Part shown: positions 6,082-19,984 of the stretch, piece by piece
How the letters are laid out: every line of letters starts with the position of its first letter
Position numbering within the stretch: position 1 is the first letter of the stretch
NCBI GenBank assembly: GCA_031280435.1
Contig: JAITGS010000115.1
Coordinates: forward strand, 1 to 34,661
From: Tannerellaceae bacterium
GTDB lineage: Bacteria; Bacteroidota; Bacteroidia; Bacteroidales; Tannerellaceae
Length of the DNA stretch: 34,661 nucleotides
Direction: 5' to 3'
The notes under the pieces: model-generated
The model's input: only the letters and a program-made list of their open reading frames with translations
Told to the model about the DNA's origin: nothing
The model's database searches: none
Position numbers and translations under genes: made by a program

Positions 6082-6409
6082 CTAAAATATTTTTTTTGCA
6101 CAAATATTCGCAAATTATTAGATGATTTGGGATAAAACATTTGAGCTAAACGGCTGATTAGTCGGATATTTATGGGAAATAAAGATGAAAATTTCAGTTT
6201 TTTGCTTAAATGCCGTTGCGGAAAAATTTCAACATCTGCTATATATATATAATGTGTACCTGTTCTAATCTCAACCGTCCCTGATGAAATAAGATGCATT
6301 TGCAATGGGTCGATTGCTATGCAGGGCAAAGTGTTTAAACAGAATTGATGCACAACTGTGCAAATCTGTTATGACGCAAGAACCGTGTTGGCCAAAATCT
6401 CGCGAAATG
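6082..6409. other. AT-rich non-coding stretch with TA-rich motif
   Basis: No credible gene is visible here; open frames lack codon bias and recognisable motifs. It contains a TA run at 6239-6257, reading on the minus strand as TACACATTATATATATATAG. Similar runs occur at 3098-3113, 16535-16553 and 21358-21373. Confidence 0.5.
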
Positions 6410-6505
6410 GAGGTCAAGCTCCGGCAATTTGACGTCAAGCAACGGCAACTTGACGTCAAGTAACGACAACTTGACGTCAAGTAACGGCAACTTGACGTCA
6501 AGTTT
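6410..6505. repeat. 21-bp tandem array 2, about 5 units
   Basis: Cores at 6431, 6452, 6473 and 6494 follow an exact 21-bp period, with a degenerate first unit near 6412. Each later core is the perfect palindrome CTTGACGTCAAG (TTTGACGTCAAG in the first full unit) followed by YAACGRCAA. The array sits between two divergent transcription units, so a terminator role is unlikely. Confidence 0.95.
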
Positions 6506-6832
6506 TTTGGATTTGAAAGCCAATCCAGGTCTATTGAAACCCTTTTTCTCTTTGTATATAAGTATATTAGCCTGTATGCCACAAACAATATGAGAAAGGT
6601 AGTGCGAAGAGGGCAATAAACTATGAACTCAAAAACCACACATCGATTAAACGGATATAGGCATTGGGAAAATCGGTGTTAGTTTGTTCAATTGCCGGCG
6701 GGTGCAACTTGAGATTGCTTGTCCCGGCTCTCTGAAACTATTATTTTGTAAGATAATTAAAGTGAAAATGAGGTTTCTCGGCAAAAAATGCAGTAAAATT
6801 AAATACGTTCGCCCCGGATCGCAGCATTGCTA
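6506..6832. other. Non-coding stretch, no gene seen
   Basis: No supported gene or stable structured RNA is evident between array 2 and the tRNA promoter. Minus-strand open frames crossing this area and the tRNA are artefacts. Confidence 0.5.
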
Positions 6833-6896: not shown

Positions 6897-6983
6897 GGAA
6901 AGCTGCCGGAGTGGTCGATCGGGCCGCACTCGAAATGCGGTGTACGGGTAACTGTACCGGGGGTTCGAATCCCTCGCTTTCCG
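6897..6983 (+). tRNA. tRNA-Ser (anticodon CGA)
   Basis: An 87-nt type II tRNA. The acceptor stem GGAAAGC pairs with GCTTTCC (6976-6982), with discriminator G6983. The anticodon arm is CCGCA-CTCGAAA-TGCGG, giving anticodon CGA for UCG codons. A long variable arm (GTAC...GTAC) and a T-loop TTCGAAT are present. CCA is not encoded, as is usual in Bacteroidota. An AT-rich gene cassette begins directly downstream, so the tRNA 3' end may have served as an integration site. Confidence 0.93.
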
Positions 6984-7006
6984 CTTGCAACTGCCTGAAA
7001 ATGAGG

Positions 7007-7045
7007 GAAAAGCCTGGCAAACAAACATTTGTCGGGCTTTTCATT
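7007..7045 (+). terminator. Terminator of tRNA-Ser
   Basis: GAAAAGCCTG (7007-7016) pairs with CGGGCTTTTC (7033-7042), with an inner ACAAA/TTTGT stem, ending in TTTTC-ATT. Confidence 0.65.
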
Positions 7046-7099
7046 ATGCCTCAAGCCGCATTAAGCCGTATGGGGGCACACTGTTTTTCGCACTTTTTG

Positions 7100-7107
7100 T
7101 ATCTTTG
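7100..7107 (+). promoter_or_regulatory. -7 element of the channel/exonuclease cassette
   Basis: TATCTTTG matches the Bacteroidota -7 box; the upstream -33 region (TTTTTCG near 7083) is weak. The first start codon in the transcript is the ATG at 7158. Confidence 0.5.
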
Positions 7108-7157
7108 GTGCGAAATCGGGGACGAAATTTTTCCTCCCCACAACAACAACTATCAAA

Positions 7158-7331
7158 ATGAAACCAATAATTTTACGTTATGTGTTTGACCGCAAACGTG
7201 TTGCCGTCGACAGACATAAGCAAGGGCTTCTCCAAATCGAAGCCAGGCTCGAACAGATAGACAAGCTGCTCGCAGAAAAGGATAACGTTATAGGCGAAAA
7301 AGAACGGCTGATTCAAATATTGCTCAAATGA
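7158..7331 (+). CDS. 57-aa protein: integrase-arm-like start, coiled-coil tail
   Basis: A short frame not overlapped by any larger gene, about 44 nt after the predicted transcript start. Residues 1-30 (MKPIILRYVFDRKRVAVD, then GLLQIEAR) resemble the N-terminal arm-binding segment of Bacteroidota tyrosine recombinases. Residues 31-57 (LEQIDKLLAEKDNVIGEK, then ERLIQILLK) have heptad spacing typical of a coiled coil, as seen at the ends of small phage-type regulators. No catalytic recombinase part follows. It ends 9 bp before the channel gene, so translation is probably coupled. It could be a truncated integrase remnant kept as a small regulator or assembly peptide. The family resemblance is from memory and needs a search. 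Confidence 0.6.
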   Translation: MKPIILRYVFDRKRVAVDRHKQGLLQIEARLEQIDKLLAEKDNVIGEKERLIQILLK

Positions 7332-7340
7332 TAATTGTTA

Positions 7341-8081
7341 ATGTATAAAAAAGTCATAGATTATTCTCTTATTACACTAATCATTTCAAACTGTATCGCG
7401 GTAATTGTTGAAACCGTTGATGTTGTTTATAATTCATTTGGTGAGTTTTTTGTAATATTTGAAAAAACATCAGTTTGTATTTTTACAATTGAATATCTTT
7501 TTCGCTTGTGGAATTGCACAATAGAAGAGAGATTTCGCCGACCTATTATTGGCCGGCTGCAGTATATGGTATCGCTGAGAGCATTAGTAGATTTGCTTGC
7601 ATTCCTACCCTTTTATCTCCCATTTAGCACAGTTGACTTGAGATTTATTCGCATTTTGCGATTATTTCGATTTATGCGGATTTTTAAATTAGGACAATAT
7701 TGGAATGCAACAAAGCTGATATCCAATGTTCTAAAAGCCAAAAAAGAAGAGTTAATTTTATGCATCATAATTACTTTCGCTTTAATAATAATAGCGTCAA
7801 GTTTTATGTATTTCGCAGAAACCCAGGCGCAACCAGACAAATATCCAAGCATCCCCGCGACAATGTGGTGGTGCGTAACAACACTCACTACCGTTGGATA
7901 TGGCGACGTTTTCCCCATCACTATAATCGGGAAGGTATTAACGGCTTTGATCGCCATCCTTGGAATTGGTTTATTTGCATTACCTGCCGGAATCTTGGCC
8001 TCCGGGTTTGCAGAAGAATTGCATAAGGGGAAAGGCCGCGTGAAAACAACATGCCCGCATTGCGGGAATATTATACAATAG
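7341..8081 (+). CDS. Voltage-sensor-type K+ channel (6TM)
   Basis: A 246-residue inner-membrane channel of the ion_trans family. Helices: S1 about 8-28, S2 36-56, S3 75-95, S4 97-117 with regularly spaced arginines (LRFIRILRLFRFMRIFK), S5 135-157, pore loop with the K+ filter TVGYGD at 184-189, and S6 197-222. The C-terminal tail is short and carries CPHCGN, a single CxxC pair that could bind metal across subunits. There is no RCK or cyclic-nucleotide domain. The ATG at 7341 is preferred over a TTG two codons earlier. Base composition is clearly more AT-rich than the flanking housekeeping genes. It lies between a 57-aa protein and a membrane-anchored exonuclease, all apparently one transcript. 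Confidence 0.9.
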   Translation: MYKKVIDYSLITLIISNCIAVIVETVDVVYNSFGEFFVIFEKTSVCIFTIEYLFRLWNCTIEERFRRPIIGRLQYMVSLRALVDLLAFLPFYLPFSTVDLRFIRILRLFRFMRIFKLGQYWNATKLISNVLKAKKEELILCIIITFALIIIASSFMYFAETQAQPDKYPSIPATMWWCVTTLTTVGYGDVFPITIIGKVLTALIAILGIGLFALPAGILASGFAEELHKGKGRVKTTCPHCGNIIQ

Positions 8082-8118
8082 CCTACAATTATATTATCAT
8101 TTTAAATTTTAATACATT

Positions 8119-8871
8119 ATGATACCAATGGTCTTTGTAGTTATATCCATGGTCGCATTTCTCATATTTGCGATATATCTCTCAATGTCGGGTGGACACA
8201 AGCCTGTGCAAAGAAAGCACTATCACGGCCCTACGACGCCAATTACAACGGAGGACTTAGAATTTGAAAAATCGACAAACAATATCCCCGCAATTATTGT
8301 GTTTGATCTTGAAACAACGGGGCTGCCACGTGTAAAGAGAGCGACCCCAAACAATATTAACAGCTTCCCGTCTATTGTGCAAATAGCGTGGATGGTCTTT
8401 GATAAAGAATTGAAAATTATAAAAAAACAATCTCACATTATTAAGCAACCAAGAAAAATACCAGATCTGTCTACCAACATTCATAAAATAACAAATGAAA
8501 TGGCTTCGCAGTATGGGGTTGATATTTCGACCGCGGTCAACGAAATACTACAGGATGTCGAGAAATGTATAATATTGGCTGCCCATAATATCGAATTTGA
8601 CTACAATGTTTTAATGAGCAATTTGTATAGGAACGGAATAAATACTGCGCCATTAGAGAAAATCAATTTATTTTGCACAATGAAAACCGGTACGTTTTTT
8701 TGCGCAATACAGCGATATGGCGGAGGGTATAAATACCCAACGCTCGCAGAACTCTATACCGCATGTTATCCCGAAAAAAGCATCGACCCGGAAATATTGC
8801 ATAGCGCTTTAGTGGATGTTGCTATCTGCGCAAAATGCATGGACAAATTCTATGAATTAAACGTCGTATGA
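8119..8871 (+). CDS. Membrane-anchored DEDDh 3'-5' exonuclease
   Basis: 250 residues. An N-terminal hydrophobic helix (about 3-23) anchors the protein with the enzyme most likely cytoplasmic. A DnaQ-like exonuclease domain spans about 55-245: ExoI FDLETTGL with D63 and E65, ExoII AAHNIEFDYN with D161, ExoIII HSALVDVA with H228 and D233. All five catalytic residues of the DEDDh class are present, so it should degrade single-stranded DNA or RNA from the 3' end. A transmembrane anchor is unusual for this family. It follows the K+ channel by 37 bp on the same strand and shares its AT-rich composition. Housekeeping DnaQ is an unlikely identity because of the anchor and context. Confidence 0.88.
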   Translation: MIPMVFVVISMVAFLIFAIYLSMSGGHKPVQRKHYHGPTTPITTEDLEFEKSTNNIPAIIVFDLETTGLPRVKRATPNNINSFPSIVQIAWMVFDKELKIIKKQSHIIKQPRKIPDLSTNIHKITNEMASQYGVDISTAVNEILQDVEKCIILAAHNIEFDYNVLMSNLYRNGINTAPLEKINLFCTMKTGTFFCAIQRYGGGYKYPTLAELYTACYPEKSIDPEILHSALVDVAICAKCMDKFYELNVV

Positions 8872-8967
8872 TATTAAATAATTAAAAAGGAAAAAGCTTT
8901 ATTAAAAAGCTCATTGCTGCGATTATAGGAATAGCCAACAAGTAGACGTCGCATACTCTTAGCTTAT

Positions 8968-9011
8968 GGGGGAATGTTGTGTCGTTGTATTTGCACGACA
9001 ACACTTCCCCC
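8968..9011 (+). other. Long imperfect hairpin in a non-coding stretch
   Basis: GGGGGAA (8968-8974) pairs with TTCCCCC (9005-9011) and TGTCGT (8980-8985) with ACGACA (8995-9000), with a bulged segment between and a 9-nt loop. The surrounding stretch 8872-9373 holds no convincing gene. A second weak pair (CCCCCG near 9093, CGGGGG near 9120) follows before the terminator. It may be the 3' part of the cassette transcript or a structured RNA. Confidence 0.5.
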
Positions 9012-9160
9012 ACCGCCAGGAGATTATTCCAGAGGCGTACTTCACCGTCCCAAACCTCACCAAGGCCCAAAAAGTTTCGCACAATTTTCACCCCCGTTAT
9101 GTTAATGGGCTGATTTTAAGCGGGGGACATAATCCCAATCATTCCGCAATCTCAACAGAA

Positions 9161-9207
9161 CAGCGCCGCAGGCATCAAAAATAAAGCCGGCGGCGCTGTA
9201 TTTTTTG
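9161..9207 (+). terminator. Intrinsic terminator closing the channel/exonuclease cassette
   Basis: CAGCGCCGC (9161-9169) pairs with GCGGCGCTG (9190-9198), followed by TATTTTTT. The long loop contains a weak internal pairing. Confidence 0.75.
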
Positions 9208-9373
9208 CATATACACGCCGACGACTGTCAAAAATTTAGACACTACTGTCTAATTTCTTGACATGCCTCTATCAACAAACTCTCCTAATGGCCTCAAACG
9301 GACACTGTTACATCTTTGGCATGAGGATTGTATTATTACAGTAAATAATTTTAAGAAACAAAATGTTACCATC

Positions 9374-13958: not shown

Positions 13959-15254
13959 ATGAAATACATCCCAATTTTTATTCTCTCTCTCTTTGTTTCC
14001 TGCAAAGTAGAAAAGCCTGCGGTTGATACTTTTTACATAAATCTAAAAGACAGTCTCAACAATACGACTGACCGGTTTTTATTGAGCAGTATTGCGGAAA
14101 ACATTGAAATCGTCCCGCTGGAAATGAACGAAAAATATTTATACCGTAAAATAAATAATATTACGGTGGAGACTAATGATATCTTCCTAAATGGAACAGG
14201 ACATGTCCTTAGATACAACAAAGAGGGGAAATTTCTGAACCCGATCGGAATGCAGGGATTAGGTCCCAAGGAACATTTGTATGCGAAGGGCGTTGGCGTG
14301 GACGATACATCCCGTATCGTATATGTTCTTTCCGGTATAAATCCAGACATCAAGGCTTATACCTACGAAGGAAGGTTTGTTAAGGCGACACGGGTGGCTC
14401 CCGACGGCATAATAAGCGGAACAGACCATGCTGCTCGACAGGGAACAAATCACAATCGCACCTATGCCTTTATCAATAATAAGCATTTTATTAGAAGGAT
14501 GTTACCAATATGGGATGGTTCAAGCGACAATTGGCTCATTCAGAGTTTGGATACTTCCGGCAAGAAAATAAGATCCTTTTATGATCCGGTAAATAGAGGG
14601 AAAGAGAAAGGAATCCTTTCACATGGCGCTGATGGGAAAAACCTTATACCGGCATACTGGACAGAATCAAGCCCTGCCATAAACTGTTACGGAAATAACA
14701 TGAATATTCTATATGAAGGGAATGATACGCTTTACAAATATAACGCCGATAACAATGTCTTAACCCGCAGGCATATATTGTTGTGCGGACAGCGGCCCGG
14801 GTTTACAGAACTTCGACAGATGAACAAAGAGATGGAATATTTTCGGTATTTGATGATAGTGGAAGTTTGGGAAACAAAGGATTACATTTTCTTTGTGGGG
14901 GAGAAAGATCGTGATTCGTACTTAATCCGGGTGAGTAAGGAAGACGGCTCCATAAAAACCATCAAACAAAAGGGAGAGATAAAGGAATCGAAAATAATGG
15001 GTATAAGATACAGGTCGTCGGACTATCCAAATTTCACGAATGATTTATCCGGAGGCCTGCCATTTATTCCTGTATACCAAAATAAAAAATATTGGATAGA
15101 CATACGCCAGCCCGAACAGTTACTTGATATGGATTTGGAAGAGCTGAAAAATATGGAAGTCGTATTGCCGGAGAAACGGGACAAACTGATAAAAGTTGTT
15201 GAAAATTTAAAAGAAGACGACGATCCGGTATTAATAATTATCACATTAAAATAA
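13959..15254 (+). CDS. Six-bladed beta-propeller lipoprotein
   Basis: 431 residues with a lipoprotein signal (LSLFVSC, Cys 15). The body matches the Bacteroidota 6-bladed beta-propeller lipoprotein family: SIAENIEIVPLE near the start, RKINNITVETNDIFL, HVLRYNKEGKFLNPIG with the typical GLGPKEH, then blades with YVLSGINPDIKAYTYEGRF and later DYIFFVGEKDRDSYLIRV. These proteins are abundant in Bacteroidales and mostly uncharacterised; binding of a ligand or partner at the outer membrane is inferred. It stands alone on the plus strand, 196 bp after lolD, with no clear promoter match. Composition is more AT-rich than lolD. Confidence 0.75.
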   Translation: MKYIPIFILSLFVSCKVEKPAVDTFYINLKDSLNNTTDRFLLSSIAENIEIVPLEMNEKYLYRKINNITVETNDIFLNGTGHVLRYNKEGKFLNPIGMQGLGPKEHLYAKGVGVDDTSRIVYVLSGINPDIKAYTYEGRFVKATRVAPDGIISGTDHAARQGTNHNRTYAFINNKHFIRRMLPIWDGSSDNWLIQSLDTSGKKIRSFYDPVNRGKEKGILSHGADGKNLIPAYWTESSPAINCYGNNMNILYEGNDTLYKYNADNNVLTRRHILLCGQRPGFTELRQMNKEMEYFRYLMIVEVWETKDYIFFVGEKDRDSYLIRVSKEDGSIKTIKQKGEIKESKIMGIRYRSSDYPNFTNDLSGGLPFIPVYQNKKYWIDIRQPEQLLDMDLEELKNMEVVLPEKRDKLIKVVENLKEDDDPVLIIITLK

Positions 15255-19119: not shown

Positions 19120-19249
19120 CGATCGAGGAGGGCAAAAGTCGGAATCAGGATAATCTCAGGCTCGGATTTTGGCCCTTTCGCTCTCAGCAATATCCATAAA
19201 TTTATCATACAATAGTTTTCAACGCTTAAATTTTCAACTTACAAATAAT

Positions 19250-19984
19250 ATGGGACGCGCATTTGAATATCGTAAAGCAAGAAAAATGAAGAGGTGGGGC
19301 AATATGGCAAAGGTTTTCACCAAACTTGGTAAAGAAATCTCCATCGCTGTAAAGTCGGGAGGCTCCGAACCTGAAAGTAATCCCCGACTAAGAGTGTTAA
19401 TTCAACAGGCAAAAAAGGAGAACATGCCTAAGGAAAACGTTGAAAGAGCTATTAAAAAAGCCTCTTCCAAGGATTTTACCGACTACAAGGAAATGAATTA
19501 CGAAGGCTATGCCCCATTCGGAATTGCCATTTTTGTTGAAACAGCTACGGACAATACTACACGAACGGTTGCCAATGTCCGCAGTTATTTTAACAAACAC
19601 GGAGGTTCGCTGGGGACAAGCGGCAGCCTTGAGTTTCTTTTTGACCACAAGTGTGTATTCCACGTTGTAAAAAAAGATGATATATCGCTCGAAGACTTGG
19701 AACTTGAACTTATAGATTATGGTGTAGATGAAATTGAAGAAGATGAGGGCGAAATAATACTCTATGGTGAATTTGCACAAAACTCAGCCATACAAAAGTA
19801 TCTCGAGGAGAACAATTTTGAAATTAACAGCGCTGAATTTGTACGTATTCCGAACGACGTAAAAGACGTCACTCCAGACCAGCGCGAGCAAATCGAAAAG
19901 TTAATAGACAAGCTTGACGATGACGAAGATGTCCAGAACGTATTTCACAATATGCGTGAAAGCCTTATACTTTCAGACGAATAA
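19250..19984 (+). CDS. yebC: YebC/PmpR (TACO1) family protein
   Basis: 244 residues, normal length. The N-terminus MGRAFEYRKARKMKRWGNMA, then FTKLGKEISIAVKSGG, is characteristic of YebC. The family was long described as transcription regulators; members are also linked to relief of ribosome stalling (YebC2, TACO1). NPRLRVLIQQAKKENMPKEN and GSLGTSGSLEFLFDHK are further hallmarks. The start at 19250 is fixed by the conserved N-terminus. A near-consensus -7 box (TAGTTTTC, about 19213-19220) lies upstream. folC follows 9 bp downstream, so the two form an operon. Confidence 0.95.
   Translation: MGRAFEYRKARKMKRWGNMAKVFTKLGKEISIAVKSGGSEPESNPRLRVLIQQAKKENMPKENVERAIKKASSKDFTDYKEMNYEGYAPFGIAIFVETATDNTTRTVANVRSYFNKHGGSLGTSGSLEFLFDHKCVFHVVKKDDISLEDLELELIDYGVDEIEEDEGEIILYGEFAQNSAIQKYLEENNFEINSAEFVRIPNDVKDVTPDQREQIEKLIDKLDDDEDVQNVFHNMRESLILSDE

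Follow-up and report, generated by a model that had tools for sequence, protein, structure and literature searches.

The 34,661-nucleotide stretch of DNA analyzed here (hereafter, the window; contig C103 of a Bacteroidales-type genome of 3.06 Mb in 143 contigs, estimated to be ~83% complete) probably harbors the decayed left end of a phage-like integrative element at a tRNA-Ser(CGA) gene, carrying two separate cargo genes, those of a six-transmembrane Kv-type potassium channel and of a membrane-anchored DEDDh (DnaQ/epsilon-like) 3'-5' exonuclease. The anatomy of an element relic is the part of this reading which we hold with considerable confidence; an anti-phage role of the locus, suggested by its position, may be possible and is put forward tentatively.

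The tRNA-Ser gene (6897..6984, forward strand, as are all the features of the locus described below; anticodon CGA), the 3' end of which is the putative attL core, is followed by a 57-aa ORF (7158..7331), regarded in the preliminary description as a small protein with an integrase-arm-like start. Residues 2 to ~32 of this ORF matched the N-termini of tyrosine integrases from members of the same genus and family (identity of 44-61% across ~30 residues, E-values down to 5e-5), and the corresponding segment (7158..7247) comprises the first ~30 codons of an integrase gene, encoding its arm DNA-binding start. The rest of the ORF (7248..7331) is an unrelated tail fused to the integrase fragment and resembling the coiled-coil tails of unrelated proteins. 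The integrase-like start was therefore confirmed by the matches, but the ORF turned out to be a gene fragment, and its interpretation as a functional small protein was rejected, since the integrase match is confined to the N-terminus and the tail is a generic coiled coil. The relative encoded in genome G007 is a full-length integrase (Phage_integrase 1.2e-15, SAM-like 1.9e-10), whose gene closes a block of phage-like genes next to a tRNA-Arg gene.

Short repeats accompany these integrase genes. In four relatives (G010, G007, G044 and G003) the interval between the tRNA gene and the integrase start contains TTCGYAC followed after 21 nt by GTRCGAA and after a further 12 nt by a second GTRCGAA. 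The window retains site 1 (TTCGCAC, 7087..7093) and site 2 (GTGCGAA, 7108..7114) at the same 21-nt spacing as in the relatives with intact integrases, genus mates among them, while site 3, at the 12-nt distance from site 2 that those relatives also show, is decayed (GGACGAA, 7120..7126). The sites occur in two types, CAC/GTG and TAC/GTA, which covary on both sides (window 7087-7126; L085, L086, L087, L088). Judging by their position, symmetry and spacing, the TTCGCAC/GTGCGAA repeats are presumably integrase arm-type sites. With the first ~30 codons of an integrase left beside the tRNA gene and the arm sites present, the 57-aa ORF is, as far as sequence can tell, a relic of an element that used this tRNA gene as its integration site; the earlier suggestion of such a use of the tRNA gene is supported by the integrase fragment and by the conserved 21-nt spacing of the arm-type sites.

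The 57-aa ORF, the channel gene (7335..8081, with the start codon TTG at 7335 or ATG at 7341) and the exonuclease gene (8119..8871) follow in this order on one strand between the tRNA-Ser gene and a strong terminator (9160..9207), which consists of a hairpin at 9160-9199 (-26.2 kcal/mol, z -5.5) and the subsequent ATTTTTTG. All the features listed in the preliminary description, namely the tRNA-Ser, the channel with the TVGYGD filter, the anchored DEDDh exonuclease and the terminator, were thus located and confirmed. The single transcript proposed to lie directly after the tRNA agrees with the co-orientation of the genes and their shared terminator, but the tRNA gene is separated from them by an intrinsic-terminator-like hairpin (7007..7042; -23.7 kcal/mol, z -4.2) and by a Bacteroidetes-type -7 promoter motif of their own, TATCTTTG (TAnnTTTG; 7100..7107), which is located between arm sites 1 and 2 inside the inverted repeat TTTCGCAC...GTGCGAAA. 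Because the stable hairpin at 7007-7042 lies in between, the tRNA transcript probably ends there, before the cassette. The GC content of the block 7085-9212 is 39.0% versus 47.4% for the whole window, which places it among the lowest 1.5% of equal-length stretches; the cassette is indeed AT-rich, as had been noticed, but the genes at 13959-15254 and 19169-19984 nearly equal it in this respect. The foreign character of the cassette genes is borne out by their absence from the 18 other genomes of the genus, save for one distant exonuclease homologue.

Several other structures were observed around the cassette. A strong hairpin of ~48 nt without a T-run (8966-9014, z -3.6) lies between the exonuclease gene and the terminator. 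The palindrome TGTCAAAAATTTAGACA-CTAC-TGTCTAATTTCTTGACA at 9226-9263, which immediately precedes an FtsX/MacB permease gene, has the look of a site for a regulator, and DNA resembling it occurs in several copies in genome G014 and also in G017 and G009. Upstream of the tRNA gene, tandem 21-bp repeats with palindromic TTGACGTCAA cores occupy positions 6405-6509. The same genome possesses a second tRNA-Ser(CGA), 98% identical to the first and located near a contig end (L073, G000:C44, 49-139).

As to the opposite end of the element, an exact-word search of the window for attR found no stretch of at least 12 nt in which the tRNA end is directly repeated, and the best match obtained by local alignment stayed within the shuffled null; attR was not found in 15 kb of contig C118 of the genus mate G005 either. 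Since attR was not found, we call the locus a relic rather than a complete element, a shorter core being possible. Indeed, the intact elements of G007 and G041 likewise contain no repeat of at least 12 nt within 60 kb and 40 kb, respectively, and the attachment core may therefore be short. Comparison across species could demonstrate no empty site, because the flanking synteny differs between them; in G009 the orthologue of the downstream FtsX gene stands after an SNF2 helicase gene and a tRNA-Val gene.

The channel is a member of the Pfam family Ion_trans (PF00520; 1.8e-29, 103.1 bits against a curated cut-off of 25) and matches 213 distinct solved sequences, Kv/KCNQ channels being the best of them. 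Its S4 charge ladder (R103, R106, R109, R112, R115, K118) is intact, and the TVGYGD selectivity filter occupies residues 186-191 (codons at 7890..7907). As predicted from these sequence features, the channel should open on depolarization and conduct K+, the ion selectivity being part of the prediction. The segment preceding S1 is ~20-25 residues shorter than in its relatives, and the subfamily is marked by a C-terminal CPHCG (CPxCG) knuckle, invariant in 18 aligned members. Close relatives (42-61%) are scattered among Bacteroidota, Chloroflexota, archaea and many other phyla; none of the 18 other genomes of the window's genus encodes the channel, and in the genus of G374, another bearer, it was found in G374 only, being absent from 20 other genomes. 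The channel is an accessory, horizontally moving gene.

The exonuclease matched RNase_T (PF00929; 2.1e-14) and phrog_192 (3e-32), and its catalytic residues D63, E65, D161, H228 and D233 are all present in the proper order and invariant in a 34-sequence alignment. The structure model built with this alignment (pLDDT 91; the single-sequence prediction was unusable at pLDDT 39) superposed on DnaQ (8h18; Z 19.8, rmsd 2.1 over 167 residues) and on the E. coli epsilon subunit (1j53; Z 19.3), and the search of solved structures with the exonuclease sequence gave no match. The N-terminal transmembrane helix comprises residues 4-23 (8128..8187); because positively charged residues follow it, the catalytic domain should reside in the cytoplasm according to the positive-inside rule. 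TREX1, a DEDDh exonuclease with an anchor of its own at the C-terminus, may serve as an analogy only. In the phylogenetic tree the sister of the exonuclease is an anchored homologue from G014 (support 0.86), which has no channel nearby and has lost the His and Asp of the third motif. Anchored relatives are also present in G147 and G529, and the relatives in G398, G244 and G332 bear a signal peptide; no channel lies near any of them in the stretches covered. Exonuclease homologues in phage and plasmid records were mostly polymerase-type exonucleases. Beyond this comparison, the loss of catalytic residues by the anchored relatives in G014 (L014, 1453-2217) and G529 (L446, 1505-2245) makes it possible that they are pseudo-enzymes, and the signal-peptide-like N-termini of the relatives at L449, L450 and L451, with MKRFLVSLLVMFVCGLAFA in two of them, suggest an exported DEDDh exonuclease.

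The arrangement seen in the window has counterparts in G005, in which the same 28-nt promoter block and truncated integrase start stand behind tRNA-Ser(TGA) on contig C84 and behind tRNA-Ser(GCT) on contig C118. With up to 3 mismatches allowed, the block was found in 125 family genomes nowhere beyond the window and these two tRNA-Ser genes, and a scan of viral contigs gave no match. Contig C84 stops ahead of any visible cargo. The cargo on C118 (L400, 11786-15460), in itself a small defence-type slot, consists of a 252-aa TIR/deoxyribosyltransferase-like protein, AbiH (Pfam 6.7e-42) and a 311-aa protein with no Pfam match; therefore, such tRNA-Ser slots can hold a known abortive-infection gene.

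Related channels encoded on viral contigs occupy a peculiar position. Of 61 viral channel loci, 27 have an integrase within 1.5 kb, 38 have an HTH repressor-like gene at this distance and 25 have both, counts that are optimistic because some of these loci also contributed to the profiles used; the corresponding numbers for 80 genomic channel loci were 0, 1 and 0. Pfam scans of 45 proteins from the viral neighbourhoods concur, with up to 8 HTH proteins, 3 tyrosine recombinases and 2 serine recombinases. According to its annotation, the complete phage Dulem virus 33 carries an HTH gene, an ion transport protein, four hypotheticals and an integrase in succession, and many prophage-like contigs (L336-L391; L413, PP511792.1) carry a Kv-type channel flanked by an HTH repressor on one side and by an integrase of the tyrosine or serine type on the other. 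The repressor-integrase interval is a documented defence hotspot of Vibrio K139-like prophages (PMC9122126), and prophage exclusion via a proposed ion channel has been documented for Sbash, CarolAnn and lambda Rex (PMC6426596, PMC6426606); literature searches for a link of potassium channels to anti-phage defence, to prophages or to lysogeny yielded nothing relevant. The position of the window channel beside an integrase relic fits this placement, which by itself does not prove a defence function. A broader proposition, that Kv channels are a recurring gene of temperate-phage lysogeny modules acting as Rex-like exclusion effectors, of which the window would hold a copy stranded behind an integrase relic, with AbiH in a sibling slot, seems to us unlikely. 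Decayed islands like this locus are familiar; less so is the repeated occurrence of Kv channels in the repressor-integrase interval of prophage-like viral contigs. Were such channels indeed to keep superinfecting phages out, what some prokaryotic Kv channels do could be tested directly.

The two genes might instead perform ordinary accessory functions, the channel in ion or osmotic balance and the envelope-associated exonuclease in nucleotide scavenging or repair, and have arrived on a mobile element by chance. The wide occurrence of the channel family in bacterial and archaeal phyla, the mixed neighbours of its genomic members, metabolic genes included, and the solitary position of the anchored or signal-peptide-bearing exonuclease relatives in other Bacteroidales are in line with this explanation. 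So is the comparison of gene neighbourhoods: defence genes, proximity to which was proposed earlier as a check, were not in excess beside genomic channels, matches to defence models being no denser there than among the outer genes of the same loci. The location behind an integrase relic, AbiH in the sibling slot and the concentration of the viral-contig channels in the lysogeny module argue against it, and on balance we consider it somewhat unlikely.

It is quite improbable that the locus is a still mobile, integrase-less cassette which has kept the tRNA end, the arm sites and the integrase start, and which an intact integrase encoded elsewhere would move in trans among tRNA-Ser genes. The occurrence of one promoter block and truncated integrase start behind three different tRNA-Ser genes of two species, each time with different downstream DNA, and the absence of this block from the intact-integrase loci examined would be expected of such a cassette. 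However, only three such cases were found, of the third arm site the window and C118 keep a decayed version and C84 none, and attR is found neither in the window nor in 15 kb of C118.

The question whether the channel and the exonuclease form a pair was addressed by searching 393 genomes of the order with both proteins. A single adjacency was revealed outside the window, in the distant order member G374 (C16; L156, 8504-11633), where a 189-aa exonuclease without an anchor is followed by a channel of the same subfamily and by a SAP-domain protein, so that the gene order is reversed relative to the window. With eight genomes possessing both genes, ~0.005 adjacencies are expected under uniform placement, a null which is too strict because accessory genes cluster. 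The exonuclease was not found in the flanks of any of the 80 further genomic (0/80) or 61 viral (0/61) channel loci, the profile controls recovering both genes wherever expected. Recurrent adjacency being thus not observed, a conserved channel-exonuclease defence module was rejected as a candidate; the two genes are rarely adjacent elsewhere, an outcome named beforehand as speaking against the anti-phage module supposed in the preliminary description. PADLOC-DB 2.0.0 recognized no complete system, the exonuclease giving generic DEDDh and weak partial PDC-S48 domain matches and the channel and the 57-aa ORF none, in agreement with the earlier failure to match the locus to a named defence system. 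Since the pairing is rare and defence genes are not in excess near the channels, there are good grounds to read the two genes as independent cargo, and what persists of the defence idea is the position alone, with AbiH in a sibling tRNA-Ser slot and viral channels between repressor and integrase. That the two genes form a dedicated abortive-infection system akin to lambda RexAB or Sbash gp30/gp31, the exonuclease sensing or attacking the DNA of phages at the membrane while the channel depolarizes the cell, is very improbable, for to the close spacing, common strand and shared terminator of the genes, the adjacency in G374 (unlikely under uniform chance) and the existence of prophage ion-channel exclusion systems one has to oppose the reversed order and missing anchor in G374 itself, the zero counts at the genomic and viral loci, the G014 relative devoid of a channel and of two catalytic residues, the Kv and not RexB-like nature of the channel, and the lack of a PADLOC match.

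Taken together, these data lead us back to the decayed element with independent cargo, for which the following course of events may be envisaged. A phage-like integrative element would have inserted at tRNA-Ser(CGA) and later decayed, unless the locus is the end of a satellite, so that what survives is the tRNA gene together with the arm-type sites, the promoter region of the integrase gene and its first ~30 codons, and a deletion would have joined the integrase start to the foreign tail. The channel and the exonuclease, as cargo of separate ancestry behind the relic, are probably expressed from the promoter that once served the integrase, with transcription ending at the terminator at 9160. 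With the channel the cell would gain a depolarization-gated pathway for K+, and the exonuclease, seated at the inner membrane on its cytoplasmic face, would shorten DNA or RNA from the 3' end. Each gene would presumably bring an individual benefit, be it phage exclusion or another, and not act as half of an obligate pair. In the case of an anti-phage role, the channel could disturb the membrane potential while a phage enters, and DNA ends near the entry site could be the target of the exonuclease.

Compared with known systems, the channel shares segments S1-S6, the S4 arginine ladder and TVGYGD with the Kv-type (Shaker/KCNQ-like) six-transmembrane channels (PF00520, phage family phrog_7872), but differs from them in its short pre-S1 segment, its C-terminal CPHCG knuckle and the lack of a cytoplasmic ligand domain. 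The exonuclease has the fold and all five catalytic residues of DnaQ/DNA polymerase III epsilon-like DEDDh exonucleases (phrog_192, PF00929), but is only 18-20% identical to the solved domains and bears an N-terminal membrane helix in place of the polymerase fusion. The hotspots of Vibrio K139-like prophages (PMC9122126) likewise hold cargo beside an integrase, and related viral channels lie between repressor and integrase, whereas the locus retains only an integrase fragment, with no phage genes left. Lambda RexAB, Sbash gp30/gp31 and CarolAnn gp44/gp43 are prophage-encoded combinations of a membrane channel proposed to depolarize the cell and a soluble partner. A RexA-like (DUF4747) partner with a four-transmembrane channel was not found at the locus, the two proteins matching RNase_T and Ion_trans and not DUF4747; thus, where those systems combine a four-transmembrane RexB-like protein with a DUF4747-type partner, the locus combines a six-transmembrane Kv channel with an exonuclease.
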